From an uncultured Eubacteriales bacterium (GTDB taxonomy: Bacteria > Bacillota > Clostridia > Christensenellales > Aristaeellaceae), in the NCBI GenBank assembly GCA_902790525.1, contig CADASI010000085.1, positions 1-35,350 on the forward strand: a stretch of 35,350 nt of DNA. The letters run 5' to 3'. The translations under genes were made by a program, and so were the position numbers. The notes under the pieces are model-generated. The model made no database searches, was not told where the DNA came from, and saw nothing but the letters and a program-made list of their open reading frames with translations. Positions 1,140-29,123 of the stretch are shown here, one piece after another (position 1 is the first letter of the stretch; every line of letters begins with the position of its first letter).

Positions 1140-2870
1140 TCAAATCTCCTCCGCCTCGCGCTGGAACTTCTCCATATGGCGGCGGGTGAGCTCGTTGGCG
1201 GCGTTATAGCCCATGGCCTTGAGCCGCTGGTTGCGGGCGGCCACCTCCAGCACCACGGCCAGGTTGCGGCCGGGATGGATGGGCAAGAGCAGGTAGGGCA
1301 GCTTGACGCCCAATATGTCGATGTAGTTGTCGGTCATGCCCAGCCGGTCGTACTCCTTGCCGGCCTGCCAAAGCTCCAGGTGCACCACCATGTTGATGGT
1401 CTTGGAGCGCATGATCGCGCCCACGCCGTACATGGTGGAGATGTCGATGATGCCCACGCCGCGGATCTCCATGAAGTGCCGCACCAGCTCGGGGCTCTCG
1501 CCGATGAGCCGGTCCTCGTCCACGCGGCGGATGTCCACCACGTCGTCCGCCACGAGCTGGTGGCCGCGCTTGATGAGCTCCAGCGCCGCCTCGCTCTTGC
1601 CCACGCCGCTGTTGCCGGTGATCATCAGCCCCGTGCCGAACACGTTCACCAGCACGCCGTGGCGGGTCTCCCGGGGGGCCAGGGCGTTGCGCAGATAGGC
1701 GATCAGGTCCAGCTCCAGCTGCACGGTCTCCTTGTCGGAGGAGTAGATGGGGATGTGGTGCGCCGCCGCCATGACCAGCATGTCGTCGAAGCAGGGATAG
1801 CCCCGGCAGATGATCACGCAGGGCAGCGGATAGCTGAAGTACTTCGCCAGCCGCTCCCGGCGGGTGTCCTCGTGCAGCGAGGACAGGTAGGTCATCTCCA
1901 CCTTGCCCAGAAGCTGCGGGCGCTCGTAGGGAAAGAAATCCCAGTAGCCCGAGAACTGTATGCCCGGGCGGGTGGTGTTGCTGACCTCGATGGGCAGCGT
2001 CTTGCCGTCCGGGGCCAGCACCCGGGTCAGCCCCAGGGTTTTGACAAAATCCCCTCCTATCTTCCCTTCGCTCAGATATCGCTCGATCACCGCCGCCACG
2101 CCGTCCTCGAGGTTCGACGGCGCGATGATGTCCGCCGCGGCCCTGGCCTCGGGGCAGCCGTTTTCCATGGCCACGCCGACGCCCGCCGCGGCGATCATGG
2201 GCACGTCGTTCTGCCCGTCGCCGAAGGCCATCACCTCGTCCCGGGCAAGCCCCAGGTGCGTCGAGAGCCGCATGAGCGACTTGCCCTTGTCCACGCCCTC
2301 CGGGGCGATCTCGACAAAGTACGCCTTGGACTTTAAAAAGCTCGCGCCGCGGGGAAACGCCTCCCGGAGCGCCGCCTGGGCGCGGGTGGCACCCTCGGGG
2401 GTGTCGATCAAGAGCAGCTTCTGCATGTCCGACGGGTGGGCCTCCATCCACTCGGACAACGGCATGCCCACGGCGACGGGCTCCACATGGACGGCGGCGG
2501 CGTAGCGGCGGGTGTATTCGGTGACCTTTTTGCAGTAGTAGTTCCGCCCCGGGTAGGCCTGGATGTAGTACCCCATGCCCTCGCACAGCCGGGCGATCGC
2601 CAGCGCCGTCTCAAAGGGGATGCGGTCGGCGAATATCGTCTCCCCGGTGCGGTGATCGTAGGCCATCGCGCCGTTGAACAGGAGCATCGGCGCGTTCACC
2701 CCGATGCGCTCCGCCAGCGGCACCATGGCCTCCAGCATGCGCCCGCTGGACAGCGATACCCCGCAGCCCGCCGCCATTGCGGCGCGCACCGCGTCCATCA
2801 CCCGCGGGTTGATGTCGCTTTTAGCGTTCAGCAGCGTGTCGTCCAGATCCGTGGCGATCAGGCGTATCAT
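1140..2870 (-). CDS. hprK: HAD (Cof-type) phosphatase fused to HPr kinase/phosphorylase
   Basis: A 576-residue two-domain protein. Residues about 1-265 are a Cof-type HAD hydrolase: DLDDT nucleophile motif at the N-terminus, SSGRM (motif II), KGKS lysine region and FGDGQNDVPMI (motif IV). Residues about 270-576 are a full-length HprK, the bifunctional enzyme that phosphorylates and dephosphorylates Ser46 of HPr: N-terminal domain with NTTRPGIQFSGY, Walker A GNSGVGKS near residue 419, LVADDVVDI and the signature MEIRGVGIIDIS. I chose the second ATG (2870) because AAGGA lies 9 nt upstream and MIRLIATDLD is the usual Cof start; the ATG at 2879 leaves no room for a ribosome site. HprK is normally a separate protein of about 310 residues. 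A Shine-Dalgarno-like TAGGAGGGG (2051-2059) sits at the domain junction. A sequence error that removed a stop codon is possible, but one frame runs cleanly through both domains. Confidence 0.88.
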   Translation of the reverse strand: MIRLIATDLDDTLLNAKSDINPRVMDAVRAAMAAGCGVSLSSGRMLEAMVPLAERIGVNAPMLLFNGAMAYDHRTGETIFADRIPFETALAIARLCEGMGYYIQAYPGRNYYCKKVTEYTRRYAAAVHVEPVAVGMPLSEWMEAHPSDMQKLLLIDTPEGATRAQAALREAFPRGASFLKSKAYFVEIAPEGVDKGKSLMRLSTHLGLARDEVMAFGDGQNDVPMIAAAGVGVAMENGCPEARAAADIIAPSNLEDGVAAVIERYLSEGKIGGDFVKTLGLTRVLAPDGKTLPIEVSNTTRPGIQFSGYWDFFPYERPQLLGKVEMTYLSSLHEDTRRERLAKYFSYPLPCVIICRGYPCFDDMLVMAAAHHIPIYSSDKETVQLELDLIAYLRNALAPRETRHGVLVNVFGTGLMITGNSGVGKSEAALELIKRGHQLVADDVVDIRRVDEDRLIGESPELVRHFMEIRGVGIIDISTMYGVGAIMRSKTINMVVHLELWQAGKEYDRLGMTDNYIDILGVKLPYLLLPIHPGRNLAVVLEVAARNQRLKAMGYNAANELTRRHMEKFQREAEEI

Positions 2871-2904
2871 GGCGTTCATTCCTTCGTGTAGACAATCTCC
2901 CCTT

Positions 2905-2933: not shown

Positions 2934-2994
2934 CCGGATGAGGGAGAGTTGGAAAAATAATGTGTGAAAACGGGGAACGATGGGATAATAAGGA

Positions 2995-3110
2995 GGGAAC
3001 AGGGAACAGGGAAAAGGGAAAAGGAATAGTGGCTGCCGCCGGATGAACAAACCTTTTATCTGAACGCGGCAGCAGCATTTCCTGTTCCCTGTTTCCTCTT
3101 CCCTGTTCCC
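2995..3110. repeat. Heptamer-arm inverted-repeat element A
   Basis: The left arm is four tandem heptamers (GGGAACA twice, GGGAAAA twice; 2995-3022). The right arm is four complementary heptamers (TGTTCCC, TGTTTCC, TCTTCCC, TGTTCCC; 3083-3110). Between them is a core with TGGCTGCCGCC (3030-3040) and GCGGCAGCAGC (about 3067-3077), which is itself an inverted repeat. The same core occurs at 24825-24860 with the same heptamer and at 10431-10489 (reverse orientation) with a different heptamer. No coding capacity is apparent. The right arm ends about 20 bp before codons that belong to the MFS transporter. Confidence 0.85.
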
Positions 3111-3175
3111 TTTTTTCAAAGAAAGGACTGATCCCCCTGCCGCTCTTCCTGATAGCCTACTACGTAACCAACTGC

Positions 3176-10369: not shown

Positions 10370-10409
10370 GGGGACGAATTGGAATTTAAGAAGCAAATTT
10401 CAATTTGGA

Positions 10410-10517
10410 GGGATTAGGGATTAGGAAATGCCGCTGCCGCCGTTTTTACTGAAATCATTGGATTAATAAAGCGCGGTAGCCACTATTTCTAATCCCTAAT
10501 CCCTAATCCCTAATCCC
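10410..10517. repeat. Heptamer-arm inverted-repeat element B
   Basis: Two GGGATTA heptamers on the left (10410-10423) face four TAATCCC heptamers on the right (10490-10517). The core (CCGCTGCCGCCG, 10431-10442; GCGCGGTAGCCACTATTTC, 10471-10489) is, in reverse complement, the same as the core of elements A (3030-3077) and C (24825-24860), although those have GGGAACA arms. It lies 40 bp after ilvN and has no ORF. Confidence 0.85.
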
Positions 10518-10550
10518 TCTCCATTACCCCGTCAAATCCCCAACAACAAA

Positions 10551-15776: not shown

Positions 15777-15957
15777 CCGGGGGGGACGCTGTCCCCCCCG
15801 GACCCTCCTGCCCGGGGGCGCTGCCCCCGGGACCCCCGCCAAAGGGGATGATCCCCTTTGGAATCCCCAGTCGCGGGGGCGCTGCCCCCGCACCCCTGCC
15901 AAAGGGGCAGCGCCCCTTTGGAAACCCCAATCGCGGGGGCTCCGCCCCCGCACCCCC
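15777..15957. repeat. Array of six hairpins after deoC (array H2)
   Basis: It starts two bases after the deoC TGA. The hairpins in order have stems CCGGGGGGGAC (GCT loop), CCCGGGGGC (GCT loop), CCAAAGGGGAT, CGGGGGC (GCT loop), CCAAAGGGGC (AGC) and CGGGGGC (TCC). Spacers alternate between ACCCNCCTGC/ACCCCTGC types and AATCCCCAGTCG/AAACCCCAATCG types. Modules 3-6 match array H1 (read on the minus strand) almost base for base, differing mainly in the loops. The array ends just before the ribosome site of the next gene. Confidence 0.82.
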
Positions 15958-15972
15958 GTGAGGAGGATATGA

Positions 15973-24762: not shown

Positions 24763-24789
24763 CAGGCTTCCGCGAGGGATGATATGATA

Positions 24790-24893
24790 GGGAACAGGGA
24801 AGAGGGAACAGGGAACAGAAATTGTGGCTGCCGCCATCTCTATTGAACGCGGCAGCAGCATTTTCTGTTCCCTGTTCCCTGGGCCCTGTTCCC
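24790..24893. repeat. Heptamer-arm inverted-repeat element C
   Basis: Four heptamers on the left (GGGAACA, GGGAAGA, GGGAACA, GGGAACA; 24790-24817) and four on the right (TGTTCCC twice, TGGGCCC, TGTTCCC; 24866-24893). The core TGGCTGCCGCC (24825-24835) and GCGGCAGCAGC (about 24849-24859) matches element A closely, with a shorter unrelated centre. It ends about 25 bp before the next start codon. Confidence 0.85.
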
Positions 24894-24917
24894 TCAATTA
24901 CCCATACGGAGGCAACC

Positions 24918-26090: not shown

Positions 26091-26274
26091 GAATTAGGAA
26101 TTAGGAATGAGGAATTAGGAATTTTAGAATACCGGCAGACATGCGTAGGGGCGCCGATGCGGCGCCCGCCCGATCAGTATCCATGGTTCCGTTCGGGCGG
26201 GCGGCGCATCGCCGCCCCTACGATGGTCTGTGCGGTAACCTAATTCCTAATTCCTATCTCCTAATTCCTCATTT
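26091..26274. repeat. Heptamer-arm element D with a GTAGGGG palindrome nested inside
   Basis: Arms are four GAATTAG-type heptamers (26091-26118, third unit GAATGAG) and four CTAATTC-type heptamers (26240-26267, third unit CTATCTC). Inside is a weak inner stem (CCGGCAGAC, 26132-26140; GTCTGTGCGG, about 26226-26235), and inside that two inverted GTAGGGGCG units: 26143-26172 and 26194-26222. The 26139-26172 stretch is identical, inverted, to 21282-21315. The right arm touches the stop codon of the YgjP-like gene. Confidence 0.82.
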
Positions 26275-28130: not shown

Positions 28131-28859
28131 ATGAACGAAGCGTTCGCGAGGACCGCCATGCTGCTGGGCGAGACGGGCATGGCGCGCCTGGAGCGCGCCC
28201 GGGTGGCGGTGTTCGGCATCGGCGGCGTGGGCGGCCATGCGGCGGAGGCGCTGGCCCGCAGCGGCGTGGGGGCGCTGGAGCTGGTGGACGCCGACGTGGT
28301 CAGCCTGTCCAACCTGAACCGGCAGATCGTCGCCCTGCGCAGCACCGTGGGCATGCCCAAGGTGGACGTCGCCGCCGCGCGCATCCATGACATCAATCCG
28401 GACTGCGAGGTCACCCCCCGCAGGGTGTTCTTCGGCCCGGATACCGCTGATTTATTCGACTTTGCGCGCTATGACTACGTGGTGGACGCCATCGACACCG
28501 TGACCGGCAAGGTGCAATTGATCCTCCGGGCGAAGGCGGCGGGCGTGCCCGTCATCTGCGCCATGGGCGCGGGCAACAAGCTGGACCCCACCCGCTTCGA
28601 GGTGGCGGACATCCACCAGACCGAGGTCTGCCCGCTGGCCCGGGTGATGCGCCGCGAGTGCCGCAGGCGCGGCATACGGGGCGTCAAGGTGGTCTACTCC
28701 AGGGAGGAGCCCGTGCAGACCGCCGCGCCCGCGGAAGGGAAGCCCGTCCCCGGCTCCACCGCCTTCGTTCCCGCCGTGGCGGGGATGGTGCTGGCGGGGG
28801 AGGTTGTGAAAGACATCGCTTTCAGAAGAATGGGAAATGGGGAATGGGAAATTGAGTGA
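28131..28859 (+). CDS. tcdA: tRNA threonylcarbamoyladenosine dehydratase (TcdA/CsdL, ThiF family)
   Basis: A 242-residue E1-like protein that cyclises t6A37 in tRNA to ct6A using ATP. It shows VAVFGIGGVGGHAAEALARSG (nucleotide loop), DADVVSLSNLNRQ (adenylation-site pattern) and YVVDAIDTVTGK, with VPVICAMGAGNKLDPTR typical of TcdA rather than MoeB or ThiF. ATG 28131 has GAGGGGGG upstream. The last nine residues, MGNGEWEIE, are encoded by GGGAAAT-type heptamers, the left arm of element E, so the native C-terminus was probably replaced or extended when that repeat arrived. The catalytic domain appears complete. Confidence 0.9.
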   Translation: MNEAFARTAMLLGETGMARLERARVAVFGIGGVGGHAAEALARSGVGALELVDADVVSLSNLNRQIVALRSTVGMPKVDVAAARIHDINPDCEVTPRRVFFGPDTADLFDFARYDYVVDAIDTVTGKVQLILRAKAAGVPVICAMGAGNKLDPTRFEVADIHQTEVCPLARVMRRECRRRGIRGVKVVYSREEPVQTAAPAEGKPVPGSTAFVPAVAGMVLAGEVVKDIAFRRMGNGEWEIE

Positions 28860-29123
28860 GCCCGGTGGCGGGGAGCTTGAACTACATTACACAGAGAGAA
28901 CAGGACGAACTCTCCGCCTCACTACGCTGGGAGGCAAGAGGGTTACGGCATATGCGCGGCAGCCTCGGCTCCCCTTCCAGGGGAGCTGTCGCCGACGAAG
29001 TCGGTGACTGAGAGGTCGTTATCCCCCGGGAAAACGTGAAGAGTTTCCTGCGATGCCCGGGGCATTTCATAATTCCTAACTCCTAACTCCTAATTCCCAA
29101 TTCCCAATTTCCCATTTCCCATT
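28832..29123. repeat. Heptamer-arm element E, overlapping the end of tcdA
   Basis: The left arm (28832-28852) is three heptamers (GGGAAAT, GGGGAAT, GGGAAAT) and lies in the tcdA coding sequence. The right arm (29071-29120) has seven units grading from AATTCCT and AACTCCT to AATTCCC and ATTTCCC. About 220 bp between them contain another repeat (28967-29016) and a short palindrome, ATGCCCGGGGCAT (about 29053-29065). No ORF is convincing in this interval of more than 300 bp. Confidence 0.75.
28967..29016. repeat. CTCCCC/GACTGAGAGG double-hairpin repeat nested in element E
   Basis: Two adjacent hairpins: GGCTCCCCTTCCAGGGGAGC and CCGACGAAGTCGG, followed by TGACTGAGAGGT. From memory, very similar sequences are scattered through genomes of many gut Firmicutes; no database check was possible. 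Confidence 0.6.

Follow-up and report, generated by a model that had tools for sequence, protein, structure and literature searches.

Palindromic intergenic elements with many families of tandem heptamer arms on few cores in an uncultured Clostridia bacterium and its relatives

Five heptamer-armed elements in one contig

The window is the whole stretch of DNA analysed here, 35,350 nucleotides of contig CADASI010000085.1 of an uncultured Eubacteriales bacterium (assembly GCA_902790525.1), and it carries five elements, A to E, in which tandem arrays of seven-base units face each other across a core (Table 1). Elements A, B and C, which an earlier note on this DNA had picked out, are confirmed at 2994–3111, 10408–10519 and 24789–24894, with GGGAACA-type arms in A and C, GGGATTA arms in B, and B in reversed orientation. 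Convergent heptamer arrays enclose a common core in all three, AATAGTGGCTGCCGC…GCGGCAGCnGCATTTC with small departures; the AATAG said to flank it is not general, as the left junction of C reads AAATTG. The arms are also less pure than had been described, with two GGGAACA and two GGGAAAA units in the left arm of A and an odd GGGCCCA in the right arm of C. That both arms of an element carry the same heptamer holds by type for A, B and C and fails for E, where a left arm of GGGAAAT faces a mixture of GGAATTA, GGAGTTA, GGGAATT and GGGAAAT. The cores of D and E each differ from that of A, B and C, and the D core encloses a GTAG-tagged hairpin pair.

Table 1. Coordinates of the arms, cores and outer modules of elements A to E in the window
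Feature	Position	Strand	Remark
A left arm: GGGAACA GGGAACA GGGAAAA GGGAAAA	2994..3024	+	
A core: AATAGTGGCTGCCGCC...GCGGCAGCAGCATTT	3025..3080	+	Lies inverted in G002, a sister species
A right arm, G strand from outer to inner: GGGAACA GGGAAGA GGAAACA GGGAACA	3081..3111	-	1 mismatch to the same-flank arm in G002 despite the flipped core
B outer module (AATTGAAATTTGC... side)	10377..10408	-	Present in other GGGATTA-family copies (11-copy alignment); boundary approximate
B short arm, 2.4 x GGGATTA	10409..10425	+	
B core, minus strand reads AAATAGTGGCTACCGC...	10426..10488	-	
B long arm, minus strand 4.3 x GGGATTA	10489..10518	-	
B outer module (CGGGGTAAYGGAG)	10519..10539	-	Present in other GGGATTA-family copies (alignment); boundary approximate
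C left arm: GGGAACA GGGAAGA GGGAACA GGGAACA	24789..24818	+	
C core	24819..24864	+	
C right arm	24865..24894	-	Third heptamer from core is the odd GGGCCCA
D M-type arm: GGAATTA	26091..26123	+	Third heptamer from core GGAATGA
GTAG-tagged palindrome pair (REP-like) within D core	26136..26230	.	GTAG ends read off the sequence
D N-type arm: GGAATTA	26239..26273	-	Third heptamer from core GGAGATA
E left arm, GGGAAAT type	28829..28852	+	
E right arm, mixed heptamers GGAATTA/GGAGTTA/GGGAATT/GGGAAAT	29066..29123	-	

The predicted RNA folding energies of A, B and C are -73, -48.9 and -81.7 kcal/mol (z of -10.5, -7.2 and -12.6 against shuffled sequence), and an Rfam search of the window returned no match at the gathering score, so that a known RNA family is not supported. 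By Pfam, A lies beside a HAD-hydrolase/HPr-kinase frame and an MFS transporter, B beside an acetolactate-synthase small-subunit-type (ACT) protein and an FMN/FAD flavoprotein, and C beside YtfJ and CDP-glycerol glycerophosphotransferase, while a YgjP-like protein adjoins D and a ThiF protein adjoins E; none of these named neighbours appears to point to a dedicated system. We also note that the frame at 1140–2879 (minus strand) joins a HAD hydrolase (residues 8–265) to the N and C domains of an HPr kinase (278–567), which is either a gene fusion or a missed boundary, and that a hairpin-rich unit of 59–60 bp stands in tandem at 19–155 and at 15813–15958.

Abundance, families and distribution

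The source genome is a 3.75-Mb draft of 199 contigs (94.66% complete), of which 829,798 bases, a non-random 22%, were surveyed for arrays; the study as a whole draws on draft assemblies, this survey and two sister species, and on sequence alone. There are 146 purine-rich arrays of period seven in the surveyed bases, 56 convergent pairs (a plus-strand array and a following minus-strand array no more than 600 bp away) and 34 arrays without a detected partner. Neighbouring arrays no more than 450 bp apart are plus-minus in 55 cases, plus-plus in four, minus-minus in two and divergent (minus-plus) in none. Period-7 arrays of any kind number 148 in 830 kb, compared with 2, 0 and 0 in three first-order Markov controls, and they are not due to chance; the counts for other periods are 0 (period 5), 40 (6), 1 (8), 42 (9), 1 (10) and 4 (11). 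The hundreds of copies per genome that had been predicted fit both the 178 + 147 overlapping matches to three units of GGRANNW genome-wide and the 146 arrays in 22% of the genome, although this density is not an unbiased estimate, because for its second half the sample drew on contigs already matching the GGRANNW search. The reversed-pattern control for GGRANNW (91 and 61 matches) is invalid, since heptamer arrays fit both readings, and a 17-base core pattern with up to three mismatches gave 27 + 28 matches against 28 + 27 in its control, only the close matches being informative.

The main heptamers are GGAATTA, GGGATTA, GGGAACA, AATTGAG, GGGAGTA, GGGAATT, GCAGAGT and GAGAGTG, with GGGAAAT and GGCAATA rarer, and GGG runs are absent from several families (GGAATTA, GAGAGTG, AATTGAG). 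Two classes of core recur, class I (AATRGYNGCTGCCGC) and class II (AAATCC...GGATTT), with several arm families, and the elements range in size from about 75 to several hundred bp. Fifty-three of the 146 arrays lie wholly within an open frame of at least 150 aa, compared with 91% of random 28-mers by the same crude frames. Alignment of 11 copies of the GGGATTA family shows a core and loop common to all of them, the left outer module in nine and the right one directly in six. Because these copies share the loop and, mostly, the outer modules, the whole element looks like the spreading unit; and because the outer modules lie beyond the arms, the arms of this family are not strictly terminal. A separate palindromic element, with ends AGAGTGTGTTTCTAAATGCC, is inserted in heptamer arms at L159:14495–14780, L014, L071 and L072.

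The GTDB collection has 90 stretches with the exact core motif AGRAATAGTGGCTGCCGCS; among the 80 listed, 72 are titled as uncultured Clostridiales or Clostridia, largely RUG and RGIG assemblies (rumen or ruminant gut where the title names a source), and in the other eight, titled as other groups, no heptamer array adjoins the motif. The idea that one core recurs with swapped heptamer arms is borne out in the genus, where at least six heptamers flank the 19-base core motif (GGGAACA, GGGATTA, GGGAGTA, GGAACYA, GGGATCA, GGCAATA and others). Across the family, 10 of 200 genomes and 3 of 50 genera have a paired GGGANNA pattern, and one genome of another genus (G118, loci L265–L272) has convergent GGGATTA/GGGAATA arms around a different core, with 194 overlapping pattern hits per strand.

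Intergenic tandem heptamers are on record from several phyla, but no function for them has been agreed. The STRR of cyanobacteria are abundant intergenic tandem heptamers. The Beggiatoaceae likewise have abundant intergenic tandem heptamers, TAACTGA, in the available text of one report (PMC4679880), and in this respect both resemble the arrays described here. Paired heptamer arms, which had been taken to be undescribed, are in print for Xanthomonas (PMC4692102), and paired tandem repeats for Geobacter metallireducens (PMC2700814), as the accessible parts of both reports make clear. Rehm et al. (2015) counted 70 and 75 convergent inverted GGGAATC pairs in two Xanthomonas genomes and few in Nostoc, and the Xanthomonas repeats mostly keep their gene context between two species (PMC4692102, available portion). 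These GGGAATC/GGGNATC repeats share with ours the tandem G-rich heptamers, a preference for four units, a mostly intergenic position and convergent pairing; the same portion of the report gives one heptamer type per genome and mentions no fixed core (PMC4692102), whereas here about nine families occupy few cores and slots change family. In G. metallireducens, tandem-repeat sites mostly come in pairs on opposite strands (classes 1–3), and the likeness is in repeats of about 7–8 bases that are mostly so paired in these classes or stand as four heptamers in H4; that report interprets them as RNA elements or binding sites for protein, and the accessible text describes no common core with exchangeable arms (PMC2700814). 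In the literature searched, which included few subscription journals, no listed title or abstract opening describes such elements in rumen Clostridia, and about nine heptamer families on few cores, same-slot replacement of whole elements and an odd third unit were not met there. With many heptamer families, few cores and sites that can be traced between species, this genus allows one to ask directly whether a protein recognises the heptamer, whether pairing maintains it, or whether it is simply a passenger.

Agreement between arms and change at orthologous sites

The heptamers of the two arms correlate within elements, as had been anticipated: the arm consensuses are identical in 34 of the 56 pairs (shuffling gives 9.2, at most 18), within one base in 48 (shuffling gives 21.6, at most 33) and two or more bases apart in eight. 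The earlier note had attributed such agreement to a copying process that regenerates the second arm from the first. By this account, a quasi-palindrome correction, one arm would be resynthesised from the other and a new heptamer thereby carried to both; the process is known (PMC8604942, available portion), it would yield the 48 closely agreeing pairs, and the flipped core of element A (below) fits the same enzymology. One GGAATTA pair (L104:10858) also has GGAATGA in both arms. Of the other 19 pairs of this family, however, 14 have GGAATGA solely in one arm and GGAG[ATC][TG]A solely in the other, and five lack one or both marks.

Copies with such side-specific arms lie at many loci, and they can be compared by side. 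For the six GGAATTA pairs with four clean heptamers on each side, identity is 0.975 among M arms and 0.975 among N arms, and between M and N arms it is 0.877 within elements and 0.877 between them; in the GGGATTA family (seven copies of the 11, those whose two arms are both intact) same-side identities are 0.963 and 0.952, and opposite arms score 0.908 both within and between elements. In the two families tested, then, an arm matches same-side arms elsewhere at 95–98%, better than its own partner, which resembles it no more than any opposite arm does (88/88% and 91/91%). Smaller groups agree, with identities within and between elements of 0.781 and 0.789 for eight GGAACYA elements of RUG12424 (p = 0.67), 0.866 and 0.856 for six GCAGAGT elements (p = 0.34) and 0.917 and 0.915 for four GGGAACA elements (p = 0.52). 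The pooled GGAATTA classes I and II (18 and 14 elements) give p of 0.000 and 0.001 for within-element agreement, which we read as agreement at the level of families because these groups mix GGAATTA, GGGATTA and GGAATTG subfamilies. Palindrome-arm agreement thus need not imply that one arm repairs the other, and with side-specific variants persisting in both families we consider copying between arms very improbable.

Orthologous sites bear on the same question. Two sister species, G001 and G002 (87–98% identity over the longest matches), were compared; at a site that they share, they do not count as two separate observations. Twenty-six sites with usable flanks (in the window, L098, L104, L107, L157 and L159), to which family labels were assigned by hand, gave 36 comparisons, of which eight are without any array in the sister species, nine are not two-armed in both species and 19 are two-armed. 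Both arms are kept in seven of these 19, one arm is changed in five and both are changed in seven. The earlier note had stated that the arms must change together; the five changes of a single arm speak against this and against arm-to-arm copying, arms that vary independently being the outcome that the note itself had named as contradicting its account. In all five the core still aligns (scores 36–76), in one case equally well when inverted.

The seven double changes, at six sites, put a new matching pair in place of the old in six cases and a non-matching pair in one, and differing families thus occupy orthologous slots. The core score is 15 or less in six of the seven (shuffled 95th percentile 14.5, maximum 21.5), indicating that the core has gone too; in the seventh, at L107:7819, new arms accompany a class II core that aligns better when inverted (39 vs 22). 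At C, L107:5934, L107:7819 and L157:9289 the alignments, read by eye, place the replacement at nearly the same spot between the stop codon and the next ribosome-binding site, and the site at L159:14495 has different families in three species. Two of the seven comparisons with kept arms show a poorly aligning core (L157:9289 in G002, 14.5, and E in G002, 17.5), and arms may therefore stay while the core goes.

Taken together, these comparisons suggest that the agreement of arms mostly reflects descent and whole-element replacement. We think it probable that the elements form related families of gene-free palindromic intergenic units that spread whole, and that are further shaped by slot replacement, core flips and drift of individual arms. 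Each family would carry its own heptamer in both arms, with arms and core (and, in GGGATTA, the outer modules) spreading together, so that the arms would agree by descent. Where an intergenic slot is already filled, often in the gap that separates a stop codon from the following gene, its element would on occasion be replaced by one of another family. The arms would drift singly, heptamer by heptamer, and this may be why mixed and chimeric elements occur. One difference is ill explained by simple drift, it would seem: between the left arm of D (26091–26123) and L112 in G001 the heptamers share an A-to-G change at the same position, with the GGAATG variant kept in both.

Selection could instead hold the arms complementary, through compensatory changes at fixed gene-end slots, if what matters is a paired hairpin of RNA or DNA. 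The folds are very stable, several slots stay armed although the family changes, and the 38 class I elements of the genus have an arm identity of 0.844 compared with 0.756 in shuffles (maximum 0.799), although these shuffles leave relatedness uncontrolled. Pairing alone, though, needs no likeness among the heptamers of one arm; the third heptamers mismatch between the arms of the six clean GGAATTA pairs (GGAATGA facing GGAGATA or GGAGTTA), and 34 of the 146 arrays have no detected partner to pair with. We regard this explanation of arm agreement as rather unlikely; under the preferred reading, too, the elements may act at gene ends as strong hairpins in the RNA.

Core inversion, unit order and mobility

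Cores are found inverted between species. Element A aligns with its counterpart in G002 at 77.5 inverted and 41.5 direct, and its core alone at 56 and 17, while the flanks are colinear over approximately 800 bp; these genomes are all drafts, and assembly may have made some of the flips or chimeras. The right arm of A is one base off the G002 arm at the same flank and keeps the odd heptamer GGGAAGA, whereas the left arm differs between the species and is uninformative as to whether it moved. Among the 20 GGAATTA pairs, a scripted count finds the junction [AG]TGCCGG beside the M arm in eight, beside the N arm in two and absent in 10. In yeast, template switching between inverted repeats homogenises arms and inverts spacers (PMC8604942, in its accessible part); a polymerase switching templates between the inverted arms would most likely account for the core flips here, and judged from the alignments it is mainly inversion, of these two outcomes, that the heptamer elements display.

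The order of units within arms has a regularity of its own. Where a single unit of four is odd in class I left (P) arms, it occupies the third place from the core in 25 of 44 arms, the fourth in 13, the first in three and the second in three (86 of 125 arms passed the filter, 34 of these 86 being mixed and eight uniform, and related copies are not independent); in the set of 38 elements whose two arms could both be read, the third place accounts for 16 of 20 single-odd left arms. Right arms are less regular, with the odd unit third in seven of 19 single-odd arms of the 38-element set and five of 11 in the other count, and the rule is strong only in left arms. In G118, with its other core, three of 11 GGGATTA right arms read, by eye, GGGATTA GGGATTA GGGAATA GGGATTA from the core outwards. 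The odd-third order is not the one that slippage predicts, since slippage would be expected to place odd units at the edge of an array.

The elements could be MITE-type units moved in trans by a putative transposase for which some four heptamers at each end would serve as the recognition code, a code that changes with the enzyme. The recurrent four-heptamer arms, the odd third unit of left arms and its recurrence in another genus on another core are in keeping with this, as are GGGAACA arms nested within GGCAATA/GGGAATA arms (L104, L160, L163). Set against MITEs, which are dispersed and non-coding with terminal inverted repeats, the elements have arms in 56 convergent pairs and dispersed copies of one family, but in GGGATTA the outer modules lie beyond the arms. 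They also resemble the BrickBuilt MITE in being short, gene-free and intergenic with inverted ends and internal tandem repeats, but BrickBuilt has an internal minisatellite (PMC4596501, available portion), whereas here the tandem repeats are themselves the inverted arms, and neither a target duplication nor a parent transposon was found. No transposase with such ends was found in the 830 kb surveyed or in 299 kb of relatives, nor was an autonomous copy: none of the 21 longer arm pairs (450–6000 bp) in the same sequences has both arms otherwise unpaired. The array-free sites of the sister species provided no clean empty and filled pair with a target duplication, those sites not being clean, and the Y1 transposases inspected in the genus are flanked by other palindromes. 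We hold movement in trans as a tentative possibility, doubtful on this evidence. A broader proposal, that the arms are a recognition code for a putative protein that would read some four heptamers in each arm, the third of them always odd, that the letters are family-specific and slots are swapped like cassettes, and that one kind of reader serves a cross-phylum class in Clostridia, Xanthomonas and Geobacter, seems to us distinctly unlikely. The preferred reading, spread of whole elements, is the one that the shared loops and outer modules suggest, although the lack of a clean empty and filled pair and of an autonomous copy in these sequences counts against it as well.

REP and BIME sequences with Y1 (RAYT) genes are likewise high-copy intergenic palindromes (PMC3733652 and PMC2817692, each in its available part), and the earlier note had proposed a search for a REP-type helper. 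No Y1 (TnpA_REP-type) transposase was found in the draft genome, with no match to PF01797, while 16 of 28 genomes of the genus have matches. Of the 45 matches listed, 20 loci were inspected, and none has an above-threshold heptamer array within 300 bp of the Y1 gene; by eye, 15 have GGGACGGTYC-type palindromes or halves nearby, two GGGGACAGGTTCC, two GTAGGGACGCC and one none of these. TnpA_REP was rejected as the helper on these grounds, not being found in the source genome and lying beside other palindromes at the inspected loci. The available text on REP describes 20–40 bp units with a GTAG- or CGTC-type tag (PMC3733652), whereas the heptamer-armed elements are larger, their arms bear no such tag, and no Y1 gene is tied to them.

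Several other palindromes were seen in the course of this analysis. Y1 frames of approximately 250–340 aa (L273–L286, L291) lie near GGGACGGTYC...GRACCGTCCC palindromes or halves, with the variant GGGGACAGGTTCC at L287 and L288. Two shorter frames of 165–179 aa, L289 (G001:C8) and L292 (G016:C3), are flanked on both sides by GTAGGGACGCCATnnATGGCGTCCG palindromes, which is the GTAG-tagged REP layout, and similar GTAG palindromes lie inside heptamer element cores of the source genome. Finally, opposite L107:9248, the sister-species locus L137 (G001:C16) contains an inserted palindrome that ends in GGGCCTGTGCATAAATTATT, seems to have duplicated TTA, is absent from the source genome and resembles a clean MITE-type insertion.
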